64,000 nt of DNA from Saprospiraceae bacterium (lineage in GTDB: Bacteria > Bacteroidota > Bacteroidia > Chitinophagales > Saprospiraceae). The notes under the pieces are model-generated. The model was not told where the DNA came from and did no database searches. It saw only the letters and a list, made by a program, of their open reading frames with translations. Positions 55,257 to 60,661 of this stretch are shown here, in pieces. Positions within the stretch are counted from its first letter, which is position 1. Each line of letters opens with the position of its first letter. A program made the position numbers and the translations under genes. Where the stretch lies: the NCBI GenBank assembly GCA_013214355.1, contig JABSSL010000007.1:103538-167537 (forward strand). The letters are read 5' to 3'.

Positions 55257-56168
55257 TTATTGATCTTTGCTCAGCTCATCCCAAGCCACCTGTAGGTTGA
55301 CATTTTTGAAACGTCCACCTTGCCAGTCTTCTGCTTTTGGGATCAGCTCCGTCTTCTCTTTGAGTTGTTCAAGTGAAGTACCCTTCCTCTGCTCCTTTTT
55401 CACATATCTTAGGAGTTTCTTGAGGTATATTTCCATTTCTTTCAAATCAGCTGCAGAGCCTGTTACCTCAAAGCCTTGGCCTGCATGACCGAAAATATAG
55501 AGCGTATCTTTATCGAAGGTTTTTCGAGCTTGCTTCAATAGTTTTATCCAATTTTTGATAGAGGCTCCAGCTACCGCGTCAATATTGGGCATACGGTGAT
55601 TAAACATAAGATCGCCCATATGTACGACATTGGCGTTCTCAAGGTGGATTAAGGTATCGCCACTTGTATGGCCAGCCCCGAAATAGTGGAGGCTTACGGT
55701 TTCTCCACCTATCTTTTTGGACCAATTGGTGTCGTAAGTCGTATCGGGTAATAGTGTTTTTTCTAGGTTGCCCCTCTCTTTTGCTACTCTTTCCTGGTGG
55801 AATTTCGAATTACTATGGGCGATCACCTGCTTGACAAAGCCTTTGAAAGCAATGTTACCCCCGGAGTGATCCCCATGGTGATGGGTATTGATCAGTAGAT
55901 CCACCTGACGATCCGTCTTTTCCTGGATCTTTCCAATTAGATTTTTGGCTTGATCGGGAAATTGAGTGTCGATCACGATCACGCCCCCCTTATCGATCAT
56001 CCATCCAATCGTACCACCTCGTTCCGTATAGATTCCTACATTGCGGCGAAGGGGTTTCATCTCTCCTGCCTCAATACCCATAACCTCAGCCATGATGTGA
56101 TGCATCGGAAGCAGGGATGCTCCGGCTAGCAGGCCACCCTGCTTAAGAAAGGTTCTTCTTGTTGACAT
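55257..56168 (-). CDS. MBL-fold metallo-hydrolase with Tat-like signal
   Basis: MSTRRTFLKQGGLLAGASLLP; NTHHHGDHSGGN. Confidence 0.92.
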   Translation of the reverse strand: MSTRRTFLKQGGLLAGASLLPMHHIMAEVMGIEAGEMKPLRRNVGIYTERGGTIGWMIDKGGVIVIDTQFPDQAKNLIGKIQEKTDRQVDLLINTHHHGDHSGGNIAFKGFVKQVIAHSNSKFHQERVAKERGNLEKTLLPDTTYDTNWSKKIGGETVSLHYFGAGHTSGDTLIHLENANVVHMGDLMFNHRMPNIDAVAGASIKNWIKLLKQARKTFDKDTLYIFGHAGQGFEVTGSAADLKEMEIYLKKLLRYVKKEQRKGTSLEQLKEKTELIPKAEDWQGGRFKNVNLQVAWDELSKDQ

Positions 56169-56302
56169 GATTTTCAATTGTGTGTTAGAAGAGTACCCAG
56201 GGGATACTCAGTAATGTGCAATACCTCTAGCTTGTGCTAGAATCATGCGAGTTGTATCTCGAATTTTAACCTTCCTATTGGGTAGTCAAGTGAGCGTGAG
56301 GC

Positions 56303-56731
56303 CTATAAGAATCGTTGTTTCAGTTCTGGTGTAGGAATCATACAGCTTTCTTTCTGTCCAAACCATTTATAGCGGTTGCGGGCAATCCAGTCATAGATCC
56401 GATCCCTGATCCCTTTTGGTATTAGTTTGAACACATAAAACGGACGCCAAAGCCCGCCTAAGTGCCAGGCGATCTGTAAAGGTACATTCGAATGGGTGTA
56501 AAATTGTCCGCCATCGAACATGACCACCGTATTTAAAGCAGAAGGATCCAATCCAGCCTCCACGAGCAAAGCTTGCCCCGCTTCAGATTGCAGCGCACTA
56601 AAGCGGAATTGGCCTTTCGGATCACGCTTAATAATAAATTGTACCAAGCCATTACACAGATTACATACCCCATCAAACAAAAGGATGGGTTTATCGCGTG
56701 GAATTTGCACTGGATCATCGCTCATATTCAA
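56303..56731 (-). CDS. DCC family (DUF393) thiol-disulfide oxidoreductase-like protein
   Basis: LLFDGVCNLCNGLVQFIIKRDPKGQFRFSALQS. Confidence 0.93.
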   Translation of the reverse strand: MNMSDDPVQIPRDKPILLFDGVCNLCNGLVQFIIKRDPKGQFRFSALQSEAGQALLVEAGLDPSALNTVVMFDGGQFYTHSNVPLQIAWHLGGLWRPFYVFKLIPKGIRDRIYDWIARNRYKWFGQKESCMIPTPELKQRFL

Positions 56732-56767
56732 ATGAACGTAAGAATAGCCAACTTGTTCGATAACTGC

Positions 56768-57268
56768 TTATTCTGCTTGTACCTGCGACCGGAAGAAGGC
56801 TCCTAGTAAATTGATTTGCCCGAGGTGATAGGCGTCATGTTGCAGGACTCCTTCGATTAGATAGCGAAAGTTGTACTGATGTTGTCCATTGGACAGTAGC
56901 TTTTTTAACAAGGCATCTTCCTGCTCAGCTAGTAAGCTTAAGATCGTTGTCTGTGAGGCAGCAAATTCCTCCAATAGTTCTTCCCAGCTTAATCCATCTA
57001 CAGCGGGCCAATCTAGTGCTGTATTGAGTTCAATGACGTAGGAATGATTTCCTTGTAAATGCTCGATGAGGAATTGCCGCCAAGCCACCATGTGCCTTAG
57101 GATCTCAGCAATGTTCTTCTTTTCTGGCAGTAAGGATCGAACACTGACTTCGGGACGAATATTTTGTAGGGATGATAAAATATTAGTCCCGTACCAAGGT
57201 TGCCCATCGTAGATGGCTTCAAATCGTCGTATTAAGGCTTGTATTTGCTTGTTTTCATTCTTAGACAT
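56768..57268 (-). CDS. DinB-family protein
   Basis: HMVAWRQFLIEHL..GVLQHDAYHLGQINLL. Confidence 0.85.
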   Translation of the reverse strand: MSKNENKQIQALIRRFEAIYDGQPWYGTNILSSLQNIRPEVSVRSLLPEKKNIAEILRHMVAWRQFLIEHLQGNHSYVIELNTALDWPAVDGLSWEELLEEFAASQTTILSLLAEQEDALLKKLLSNGQHQYNFRYLIEGVLQHDAYHLGQINLLGAFFRSQVQAE

Positions 57269-57486: not shown

Positions 57487-57540
57487 TACGGCACGTGTCG
57501 TAGGTTTTCTTGCATCTACGGCGCGTGTCGTATATCTTTG
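57487..57540 (+). promoter_or_regulatory. Tandem dyad operators and promoter of the BlaI/BlaR1-like operon
   Basis: TACGGCACGTGTCGTA (57487-57502), TACGGCGCGTGTCGTA (57517-57532), TTG at 57510 and TATCTTTG at 57533-57540. Confidence 0.8.
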
Positions 57541-57642
57541 TGGCGGACATATGATCATATTCCTATAAGCTACCTGAGCGCAAGGGTAGACAATTTACTT
57601 TACGCTGACTTACAGAAATGTCAGCGTTCAGAAATACTTGGT

Positions 57643-58035
57643 ATGGAAAATAAAGACAATTATCAACCTTCAGCAACAGAACTAGAGATTCTACAGATTC
57701 TTTGGGAACATGAGCCTACGACAGTTCGCTTCATTTATGAGCAGATCAGCCAGAAAAGGGAAGTAGGTTACACCTCCATCCTGAAACAAATGCAAAGAAT
57801 GGCGGATAAGAACGTAGTACAGCGAGAACTACAAGGTAAGACTCATTATTATCGGGCTATTCCACAACAAGCTGAAGTACAGCAGAATCTATTTCAGCGC
57901 TTTGTAAACAATGTTTATCAAGGTTCAGCTATGAAGTTAGTCATGCATGCCTTAGGGCAGGGGAAGACTAGTGACGAAGAAGTAGAAGCCTTGCAAAAAT
58001 GGATTGAAGCTCAAAAAAAGCAAAAAGATGATTAG
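57643..58035 (+). CDS. BlaI/MecI/CopY-family repressor
   Basis: PSATELEILQILWEHEPTTVRFIYEQISQKREVGYTSILKQMQRMADKNVVQRE; start reassigned to 57643. Confidence 0.95.
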   Translation: MENKDNYQPSATELEILQILWEHEPTTVRFIYEQISQKREVGYTSILKQMQRMADKNVVQRELQGKTHYYRAIPQQAEVQQNLFQRFVNNVYQGSAMKLVMHALGQGKTSDEEVEALQKWIEAQKKQKDD

Positions 58036-60661
58036 CTCATTCAGTGCTGGCCTTGGGCCAATTGGAAAAGCCTTAGGGTGGATGATTATTCACAGCCTAT
58101 GGCAGATTAGCTTAATCGCTTTGGTCTTAGCCTTAGTGTTGAGGATGATTCCCCGTAAGCAGGTGAACACTCGCTATGCTTTGTTATTAATTGGATTAGT
58201 GACAGTAGTTGTTTGGTCGGGCATGACCTTTCAATCCAACTGGACCTATTATGCGTATGTACCTACTATCGAACAAGGGACTGCCTTGGTTCAAGATGCA
58301 AGCCCTATTGAGGTGACTAACTTTGAGCCAGCCGTATCTACTTGGCAGCAAGGTTTTCAGGAAGCCGTGTTTTGGTTGGATAGCCAATTGAGTAGAGTGA
58401 CCTTTATTTGGGGTATAGGCGTGGTGTTGTCTTGCTTGTACTTCATTATGGGATTATCCTATCTCCATTATCTGCAGACGTATCGAGTTAAAGTACCGGA
58501 ACCAGAATGGGTCGAACGATTTACTCGTTTATCCATCCAGATGGGTATCCGACGAAAGGTTCGATTTTTGTTGTCAGAAGTGGTACAGGATCCCATCACT
58601 TTTCGATTGCTTCGACCGGTAATTTTGCTGCCCACCTCTCTGATGACAGGCTTGGAACCCAAGCAATTAGAATTATTGTTGTTGCATGAATTAGCTCATA
58701 TTCGCCGGTATGACTTCACGGTCAATATCCTGCAAACTCTAGTTGAAATAGTCTTTTTTTACCATCCTGCGCTTTGGTGGATATCTCGGAATATTCGGAC
58801 TACTCGGGAACACTGTTGTGATGATGCGGTATTGGCCGTGCAAAATCAACCCGTACTGTATGCCGAGGCCTTAACCCGAATTCCTACTTCCAATTTATCA
58901 CTTAAAAAAAGATTAGCCATGTCCGCAAATAATAATAAGGGAATTCTTAGCCAGCGCATCTTTCGATTGTTTGGTCAATACGAAAGTCAACCACCTATAT
59001 ACAGAAGTATCTTGATGGCCTTTCTATTACTATTTCTCAGCCTTGGATCACAAGCCTTTCGGGTAGTGGAAGATTCTTCATTTCAGGCCGAGGAGCTTAG
59101 TGCAGTCCAAGCAGAACCAGTAGCAGAACTGGCACAAGAGGAAGTAGTACTGGAACCCACATCGCAAGTAGGATCTCAGCAGATAGAGCGGGAGGCACCA
59201 CAGGAATCTGCCTTGGCATCTCCAGTAGAAGTTGCTGCATCAATCATTGAGGGAAAGGTAGTAGATGAAGAGGATCAGCCATTAGTTGGAGTGAGTATCC
59301 TCGTTAAGAACACTACAGTGGGGACTGTTACAGATTTTGATGGAAAGTACAGATTGAAATTACCGACTGACTGTGCAACGCTGATCTTCAGCTATATAGG
59401 CCGGAAAAGTCAGGAGATAGAGCAAAGCTGTGGAGGACAAAAGTTGAACGTTATGTTACCTGCCACCGTAGATCTGGGAGAGGTGGTTGTGATTGGTAAG
59501 CAGGACAAGCCTGAGCGTACGACGGAAGAAGTTAAAGCAGAAAAAGCTATCATTTCTGGTACCGTAAAGGACGAGAAGGGGCAGCCGCTAATTGGAACGA
59601 GTATATTGATCAAGGATACAAAAACAGGCACGATTACCGACCTGGAGGGGGCTTTCAGCTTGACCTTGCCGAGTGAATGTGCTCCACTGGTTTTTAATTA
59701 TGTAGGGAAGCAGGTCGTAGAAGTGGCCAGTGCTTGTGGCGGTCAGAAGCTAGACATTATAATGAAGTCTAAGCCCAAGACAGCTGTTACTGAGAAAAAG
59801 GAGCCGAAGACAGTGGAAGGCTATGTGGTCGATGAGGCAGGAGACCCGCTCATTGGTACAAATATTTTGGTTAAGGGCAAGACGATAGGCACCATTACCG
59901 ATCTAAAAGGCTATTTCAGATTAGCACTACCCAACGACTGTGCTACCTTGATTTTTAGCTATGTTGGTAAGCAAAGTCAGGAGATTACTGAGATATGTCA
60001 AGGCCAAAAGCGAATTGTTCAGCTAGCAACCAAAGAGGCTACTGAAAAGGCCCAGCCTGAACCCGCAGCGGAACAAGCTAAAGCCGAAAAAGTGATTATT
60101 TCTGGTACCGTGAAGGACGAAAATAATCAGCCACTGATCGGAACGAGTATATTAATCAAGGATACAAAAATAGGTACTATCACAGATCTACAAGGCAATT
60201 ACAGATTAGCCTTGCCTGGTGAATGCGCTACACTCCTTTTCAGTTACATTGGTAAACAAACCCGAGAAGTCGCTAATACCTGCGGTAACCAAAAACTAGA
60301 TGTTGTTTTAGAGAACACGAAAGCGGAGTCAGCTGAAGAACCTGCTGCTGAACCCAATCAGCGCATCGAATTACCTGAGGTGGAGATTTCTTCTTCTGAG
60401 ACAAAGATTTTACAGGACTTGAAGGTGTTTCCCAACCCTACCTCGGGAAAGGTGACCGTAAGTTTCAAGCTAACCAAAGATACTAAGGTAATATTTGGTG
60501 TGTATACGATAGAAGGGAAACCTATTACCCTAAATGTAATGGGCTTAGGAGCTGGGACACATCGACACGTTTGGCAGGATGAGGATACGGCAAAGGGTAC
60601 TTATCTAGTACAAATTCAGGCAGAAGGAGAGAAAATTAGCCGACCATTGATTATCGAATAG
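58028..60661 (+). CDS. M56 BlaR1-like metallopeptidase with four CarboxypepD_reg-like repeats and T9SS-like C-terminus
   Basis: LLLHELAHIRRYDF (HExxH), multi-TM N-terminus, four (I/V)xGxVxDExxxPLxGxxILxK repeats, C-terminal LKVFPNPTSGKVTVSF..GTYLVQIQAEG. Confidence 0.9.
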   Translation: MISSFSAGLGPIGKALGWMIIHSLWQISLIALVLALVLRMIPRKQVNTRYALLLIGLVTVVVWSGMTFQSNWTYYAYVPTIEQGTALVQDASPIEVTNFEPAVSTWQQGFQEAVFWLDSQLSRVTFIWGIGVVLSCLYFIMGLSYLHYLQTYRVKVPEPEWVERFTRLSIQMGIRRKVRFLLSEVVQDPITFRLLRPVILLPTSLMTGLEPKQLELLLLHELAHIRRYDFTVNILQTLVEIVFFYHPALWWISRNIRTTREHCCDDAVLAVQNQPVLYAEALTRIPTSNLSLKKRLAMSANNNKGILSQRIFRLFGQYESQPPIYRSILMAFLLLFLSLGSQAFRVVEDSSFQAEELSAVQAEPVAELAQEEVVLEPTSQVGSQQIEREAPQESALASPVEVAASIIEGKVVDEEDQPLVGVSILVKNTTVGTVTDFDGKYRLKLPTDCATLIFSYIGRKSQEIEQSCGGQKLNVMLPATVDLGEVVVIGKQDKPERTTEEVKAEKAIISGTVKDEKGQPLIGTSILIKDTKTGTITDLEGAFSLTLPSECAPLVFNYVGKQVVEVASACGGQKLDIIMKSKPKTAVTEKKEPKTVEGYVVDEAGDPLIGTNILVKGKTIGTITDLKGYFRLALPNDCATLIFSYVGKQSQEITEICQGQKRIVQLATKEATEKAQPEPAAEQAKAEKVIISGTVKDENNQPLIGTSILIKDTKIGTITDLQGNYRLALPGECATLLFSYIGKQTREVANTCGNQKLDVVLENTKAESAEEPAAEPNQRIELPEVEISSSETKILQDLKVFPNPTSGKVTVSFKLTKDTKVIFGVYTIEGKPITLNVMGLGAGTHRHVWQDEDTAKGTYLVQIQAEGEKISRPLIIE
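59242..60315 (+). repeat. Four tandem ~75-aa coding repeats within the M56 protein
   Basis: Approx. 59242-59463, 59549-59770, 59813-60031, 60094-60315; copies 2 and 4 especially similar at DNA level. Confidence 0.85.

Follow-up and report, generated by a model that had tools for sequence, protein, structure and literature searches.

The systems most closely related to the locus described here are the BlaR1 antibiotic sensors, the type IX secretion system (T9SS) of Bacteroidota, and the SusC proteins. BlaR1 has an N-out/C-out topology with the region after the fourth transmembrane helix (TM4) being extracytoplasmic, it cuts the repressor BlaI directly, and in Staphylococcus aureus signal peptidase cleaves it between Gly331 and Gln332, just past the last transmembrane (TM) helix, with the sensor being shed (PMC9834060). 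In the T9SS, PorV binds C-terminal domains (CTDs) (PMC7712824), the L-beta3-beta4 glycine of the CTD is required for secretion of RgpB (PMC11285876), and domain D4 of PorM alone suffices to bind PorN (PMC5790014). SusC proteins carry an N-terminal extension (NTE) followed by a Ton box, and the NTE has been suggested by the same authors to confer, possibly, specificity for TonB orthologues (PMC7782687). Here, we describe an operon from a Saprospiraceae bacterium (GenBank assembly GCA_013214355.1, contig JABSSL010000007.1, positions 103,538 to 167,537 of the forward strand, a 64,000-nucleotide stretch referred to as the window), in which a blaI gene is followed by a gene for an M56 sensor protease (the query) with an extracytoplasmic arm of NTE repeats, a Ton-box-like motif, and a T9SS CTD. 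We tentatively favor the reading that a BlaR1/BlaI-type circuit has been rewired in this operon so that it monitors the transport machinery of the outer membrane, the T9SS in particular; as the close relatives of the sensor all have T9SS parts, it probably watches the secretion machinery and not antibiotics. The features of the operon, by window position, are as follows.

57487-57502, unstranded: putative BlaI operator 1, TACGGCACGTGTCGTA, a near-perfect palindrome kept in the orthologous loci G001 and G002
57517-57532, unstranded: putative BlaI operator 2, TACGGCGCGTGTCGTA, a palindrome as operator 1
57533-57540, plus strand: candidate Bacteroidota-type -7 promoter element TATCTTTG (pattern TAnnTTTG), directly 3′ of operator 2
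57643-58035, plus strand: blaI, penicillinase-repressor-type winged-helix repressor of 130 aa (PF03965, E 2e-24)
58028-60661, plus strand: M56 sensor protease with NTE repeats and T9SS CTD, 877 aa, ATG start (open-reading-frame list, Pfam, NCBIfam)
58109-58960, plus strand: Peptidase_M56 domain, aa 28-311, with HELAH at aa 220-224 (58685-58699) (PF05569, E 7.8e-32)
58994-59062, plus strand: last TM helix (TM4), aa 323-345, with SQAF at aa 341-344 (59048-59059) as candidate signal-peptidase site (AlphaFold helix, low confidence)
59243-59461, plus strand: CarbopepD_reg_2/SusC-NTE repeat 1, Cys449-Cys468 (PF13715)
59474-59500, plus strand: Ton-box-like LGEVVVIGK, aa 483-491 (16.7 bits, shuffle P 0.001)
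59546-59764, plus strand: repeat 2, Cys551-Cys570 (PF13715, repeat alignment)
59807-60025, plus strand: repeat 3, Cys638-Cys657, alignable only with G002, since G001 and G003 have three repeats (repeat alignment)
60092-60310, plus strand: repeat 4, Cys733-Cys752 (PF13715, repeat alignment)
60410-60658, plus strand: seven-stranded T9SS type A CTD, aa 795-877 (passes the cut-offs of PF18962 and TIGR04183)

The operon (57487-60661) thus comprises two 16-bp palindromes, the TATCTTTG promoter element, blaI, and the M56 gene, which starts 8 nt inside blaI. A Pfam search of the 877-aa protein returned the M56 domain together with four CarbopepD_reg_2 stretches (E 4.8e-69), and the M56 domain matched BlaR1 (8exs_A) in phmmer with an E-value of 5e-14. 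Its catalytic residues are intact, with HELAH followed by E261xxxD265. No match to a transpeptidase, the penicillin-binding sensor domain, was found in the query, and the NCBIfam model blaR1_generic scored 98.7 bits against a cut-off of 400. Full orthologues were found in the same genus only (G002 with four repeats, G001 and G003 with three each), and the query agrees with them, though the metagenome-assembled genomes may contain errors. Because the elements exceed curated cut-offs and reappear in the orthologues, the architecture is far above chance. The initial annotation, made from the letters of the sequence, had read an M56 domain with HELAH followed by four cysteine-paired repeats and a type A sorting-like C-terminus, and every detail of this reading that could be checked was borne out. 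Its proposal of a BlaI-coupled protease with an extracytoplasmic arm is likewise supported by the adjacent blaI, the M56 domain, and the BlaR1 topology. Having an outer-surface sorting signal on a polytopic inner-membrane protease had seemed topologically paradoxical in that annotation; given the N-out/C-out arrangement of BlaR1, the query arm should lie in the periplasm, and no paradox follows.

The C-terminal domain was identified by both Por_Secre_tail (PF18962, aa 800-876, 31.1 bits with a Pfam cut-off of 27) and TIGR04183 (30.7 bits with an NCBIfam cut-off of 23). Modeling of the C-terminal 88 residues with 17 other M56 tails gave seven strands at a pLDDT of 95.8. In Foldseek, this model matched, besides other Ig-like proteins, one chain of a T9SS complex with bound substrate (8glk_D, TMt 0.74) and the CTD of mirolase (8qb1_A, TMt 0.66). 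The L-beta3-beta4 glycine is invariant across the 18 aligned M56 tails. The query has no N-terminal Sec signal peptide; its N-terminus is polytopic and the sole candidate is a weak internal site after TM4. A match to PorU (1208 bits) and no fewer than 150 T9SS CTDs in the same genome indicate that the organism has a T9SS.

The association with the T9SS reappears in related sensors. A T9SS part was defined for this comparison as a CTD, a decayed CTD, or the D3-D4 end of GldM/PorM, which touches the T9SS ring. On a tree built from the M56 domain only, every sampled HELAH-class protein that has a T9SS part falls into a single clade, which holds 12 of the 52 rows (support 98/91), the trait requiring 1 change vs 11 in shuffles. 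This clade spans Saprospiraceae, family f51, and Splendidivirga, and it comprises the query orthologues, the L038 type, L256 and L258 (family f51), L138 (Splendidivirga), L093 (= L061), and L305. In the L038 type, the C-terminal domain is CTD-related (hhalign 95.6%, E 1.1e-8) with the PNP and glycine motifs lost, while the entire arm of L093 and L305 is GldM D3-D4. The labels of L061/L093 and of the L038 type were set after a rough first tree had placed them beside the query, on the basis of domain searches and not of the tree. When the tree was extended with 20 new proteins fetched by the M56 profile alone, only three had a T9SS tail and all three fell inside the clade, which then held 15 of 58 rows at 92/80 and was present in 91% of bootstrap trees, with 14 of the 15 grouped at 96/88. 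This extension was partly blind, as L311 was placed before its tail was inspected, but the tails of L310 and L313, which a pattern had missed, were already known when these two were placed. Proteins with TonB_C and a T9SS tail (L047 type) fall outside the clade and seem to have arisen separately. In L093 and L305, the M56-GldM gene is immediately followed by a stand-alone gene that encodes one TM helix and GldM D3-D4 (L093:1130-1858 and L305:3350-4078), resembling a sensor arm without the protease.

With more reserve than for the query circuit itself, we suggest that an ancient clade of BlaR1/BlaI-type proteolytic switches in Bacteroidota may be dedicated to reading the state of the T9SS, via arms that imitate either the cargo of this machine (CTD) or the shaft of its motor (GldM D3-D4); the query arm would also offer TonB a handle. 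The known route for sensing T9SS load or failure in Bacteroidota is PorXY/SigP with PorA; a repressor-protease switch with fused T9SS parts would, if this is true, be a second and directly testable one. No paper joining BlaR1 with TonB and type IX secretion was found among the open-access papers searched. The same modules could also be mere Ig-like stalk parts, with an unrelated true ligand such as cell-wall fragments, or redox state read via the cysteine pairs. This would fit the difference in repeat number between species (3 or 4), the ankyrin, HEAT, or unassigned arms of other M56 proteins in the genome, and the persistence of a motif-less CTD-related domain in a sister lineage. However, it leaves unexplained the presence of two unrelated kinds of T9SS-specific parts within one M56 clade as well as the conserved Ton-box-like motif, and we consider it unlikely.

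Since PorM D4 binds PorN and PorV binds CTDs, a sensor anchored in the inner membrane should be capable of docking on the T9SS through an arm that ends in one or the other of these modules. In the docking mechanism that we provisionally prefer, the arm would remain tethered at the inner membrane and span the periplasm, the cargo receptor or the translocon of the T9SS would recognize its CTD, and TonB may engage the NTE/Ton-box part. The docked or undocked state would be relayed via TM4 to the cytoplasmic zinc site, which would then cleave BlaI and lift the repression of the operon. The initial annotation had instead raised release of the arm by cleavage, for which shedding of the S. aureus BlaR1 sensor is a precedent. 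In such a mechanism, TM4 would also serve as a signal peptide within the protein, at which signal peptidase I would free the arm into the periplasm, and the CTD would export it via the T9SS to the surface, leaving a sensor stump and a secreted four-NTE protein. The SQAF sequence is identical in all four orthologues, with the following 60 aa being only 7% identical, the motifs and fold of the CTD are complete, and across 112 M56 proteins the ends of TM4 score as more cleavage-site-like than those of TM2 (Wilcoxon p 1.8e-8), at least 5 bits being reached after TM4 in 27 of 112 and after TM2 in 7 of 112. Against this, the query site is weak (5.2 bits, at the bottom of the training range; shuffle P = 0.11), T9SS tails co-occur with TonB_C, a periplasmic domain, and sister clade members bear GldM arms or the motif-less CTD-related domain. 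Many other T9SS-tailed M56 proteins lack a signal-peptidase site, and the general claim that signal peptidase frees T9SS-tailed M56 arms was rejected on this ground. Release followed by export is, in our judgment, still less likely than a plain stalk. An adhesive arm, also proposed initially, was dropped as nothing supporting it was found. In a further group of M56 proteins (L240, L245, L247, L248, L249, L231, L233, L234, and L239), a lipobox-like sequence such as LPIACSDLR stands right after TM4, and the arm in this group could perhaps become a lipoprotein.

By profile and alignment, the query repeats are SusC NTE-type modules (PF13715), and one modeled repeat superposes on the SusC NTE structure 9hfj with a TMt of 0.84. 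All 14 repeats across the four orthologues contain a cysteine pair, which no aligned SusC NTE domain from the same genome has. The full-length AlphaFold model (4 rows) had a pLDDT of 45.5, and only its strand register and single-domain matches were used, not the global fold. Within every repeat of this model, the paired cysteines are placed on opposite strands of a beta-hairpin, exactly in register (for example, 449+468 = 455+462). The AlphaFold check for disulfides that had been proposed in the initial annotation is suggestive at most, the register fitting a disulfide in each repeat of a low-confidence model. The cysteine pairs probably form intradomain disulfides that would staple the hairpin and stiffen the arm.

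The Ton-box-like motif was assigned by motif alone, using a matrix derived from ten of the genome's own SusC-type proteins, and stands after repeat 1 only. It is 100% identical in three species, vs 28-33% identity in the linkers aa 345-404 and aa 492-506. Among 165 Bacteroidota M56 arms, 13 have Ton-box-like motifs vs 0.5 expected from shuffles; the shuffle controls of this analysis, including that for the tree, ignore the relatedness of the sequences. An arm with this content might monitor TonB or TonB-dependent receptors, with the NTE and Ton box as its business end and the T9SS CTD secondary. The order of NTE and then Ton-box-like motif is that of SusC proteins, the proposed TonB-orthologue specificity of the NTE would suit such a role, and M56 arms often carry TonB_C and Plug modules. 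The NTE array, on the other hand, is limited to orthologues found in one genus, with the motif missing in one of four species, whereas T9SS parts run through the whole clade. A sensor dedicated to TonB is the least probable of the alternatives considered here.

Upstream of blaI, the operator pattern gave 4 strand-matches in the window, a number equaled in 0 of 100 shuffles, and the 30-bp spacing of the pair is the same in G001 and G002 (three species with the query). Clade member L256 has the related sites TACGACAAATGTCGTA and TACGACAACTGTCGTA (TACGAC...GTCGTA) 30 bp apart upstream of blaI, TACGACAATTGACGTA is present twice in clade member L093, and an operator of similar type, TACGACATTTGTCGTA, precedes the sister blaI of the L038 paralogue. 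We take TAnnTTTG to be the Bacteroidota -7 consensus, and TATCTTTG presumably serves as the promoter element. A genome-wide regulon search found no other site with R-Y half-sites except at the query promoter and at that of one paralogue; on this basis, the query BlaI seems to regulate just its own operon. PDB matches of this BlaI are MecI and BlaI. Elsewhere in the genome, several of the 17 BlaI-M56 pairs have 16-bp TAC...GTA operators of their own in front of blaI. In L043 and L045, blaI is preceded by pairs of palindromic operators with a spacing of 27 or 22 bp (for example, TACGATAATTATCGTA and TACTACAGCTGTAGTA); each is different, which suggests separate circuits. Operator 1 lies on the side facing a divergent minus-strand cluster (55257-57268) that encodes a DinB-like protein, a DCC1-like thiol-disulfide oxidoreductase, and a metallo-beta-lactamase-fold protein, and that adjoins the operon in three species.

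Several observations weigh against a T9SS-docking sensor. The CTD motifs of the query are intact, leaving genuine export possible, the Ton-box-like motif is absent in G003, and operators of the query type were not found at T9SS genes. The N101-F102 cleavage pair of MecI aligns with His-Ala in the query BlaI, in which another cut site is possible. Support for the clade dropped from 98/91 to 92/80 when rows were added, and the clade amounts to about ten independent lineages with long branches in a modest tree sample. The support is sequence-based throughout, and it is from this that we infer the ligand, the docking, the cleavage of BlaI, and the disulfides.

The variety of arms on other M56 proteins places the query in a wider context. 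The 11.2-Mb genome has 17 M56 genes (G000 and L037-L053 in our labeling), each with a BlaI-like gene before it, and the arms carry ankyrin (3), HEAT (1), or TonB_C (2, one with Plug and a T9SS tail), besides the query and others without assignment. The query is not the only M56 protein with a T9SS tail; a second one of this genome (L047) and many in other genera have such a tail. Using a CTD profile made from the organism's own cargo, 19 T9SS-tailed proteins were found among 165 deduplicated Bacteroidota M56 proteins, a sample enriched for Saprospiraceae and long frames; E-values of such home-made profiles are approximate. Ten tailed proteins were scanned, of which nine exceed the Pfam tail cut-off and eight also have TonB_C or Plug at E <= 0.001. 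On the 146 tail-less arms, Pfam found TonB_C most commonly (26), then Plug (7), ankyrin (5), and CarbopepD_reg_2 (4), with one each of GldM D3-D4, CHU_C, POTRA, and Amidase_3. The CHU_C domain, a type B T9SS signal, is internal in L300 (321-1718), between TM4 and TonB_C, and therefore cannot serve as a C-terminal sorting signal. As to the condition set in the initial annotation, that an architecture already annotated in many genomes would not be novel, the NTE-array form was found in one genus only, and T9SS-tailed M56 proteins are not rare. Beyond that annotation, the present analysis adds the NTE identity of the repeats, the Ton-box-like motif, the conserved operators with self-control, and the M56 clade with T9SS parts. 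Taken together, the arms suggest a rule in which M56 sensors are modular and the arm names the watched target (TonB_C, Plug, NTE, Ton box, CTD, GldM, POTRA, amidase), which would supply functional hypotheses for many M56 proteins now described merely as BlaR1-like.

Other arms in the sample include two POTRA domains in L260 and an N-acetylmuramoyl-L-alanine amidase domain in L254. The arms of L049, from the same genome, and L101 consist of a short repeat that bears the motif KIHNV/KIHGI and is present in many copies. Long, highly charged repeats such as RDQEQARRDQ end the arms of L167, L183, L189, L190, L193, L194, L196, L203, L204, and L208-L210, which belong to Mucilaginibacter, Chitinophaga, and relatives.

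In comparison with known systems, the operon resembles BlaR1/MecR1-BlaI/MecI (PF05569/PF03965; 8exp-8ext) in having an M56 gluzincin with TM helices, an adjacent blaI, palindromic TAC...GTA operators, and an extracytoplasmic C-terminal arm. Unlike BlaR1/MecR1, the query has no penicillin-binding domain, its arm instead combining a T9SS CTD with SusC-NTE repeats and a Ton-box-like motif; its M56 protein falls far under the NCBIfam BlaR1 cut-offs and, unlike BlaI/MecI, its BlaI lacks the N-F cleavage pair. As in T9SS type A cargo (TIGR04183/PF18962), there is an 80-residue, seven-strand C-terminal CTD with the L-beta3-beta4 glycine, but the query lacks the N-terminal signal peptide of such cargo, its CTD is placed on a polytopic inner-membrane protease, and any export would be hypothetical. 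The repeat fold and the order of NTE and Ton-box-like motif are those of the SusC N-terminal extension (9hfj, 6ytc), whereas the four NTE copies with a cysteine pair, on an inner-membrane protein without a barrel, are unlike SusC. Finally, PorA of Porphyromonas gingivalis is also a T9SS CTD protein in signaling (PMC7712824); PorA, however, is a surface protein upstream of the PorXY-SigP two-component route, while the query CTD is fused to a membrane protease and would act, if at all, via BlaI.

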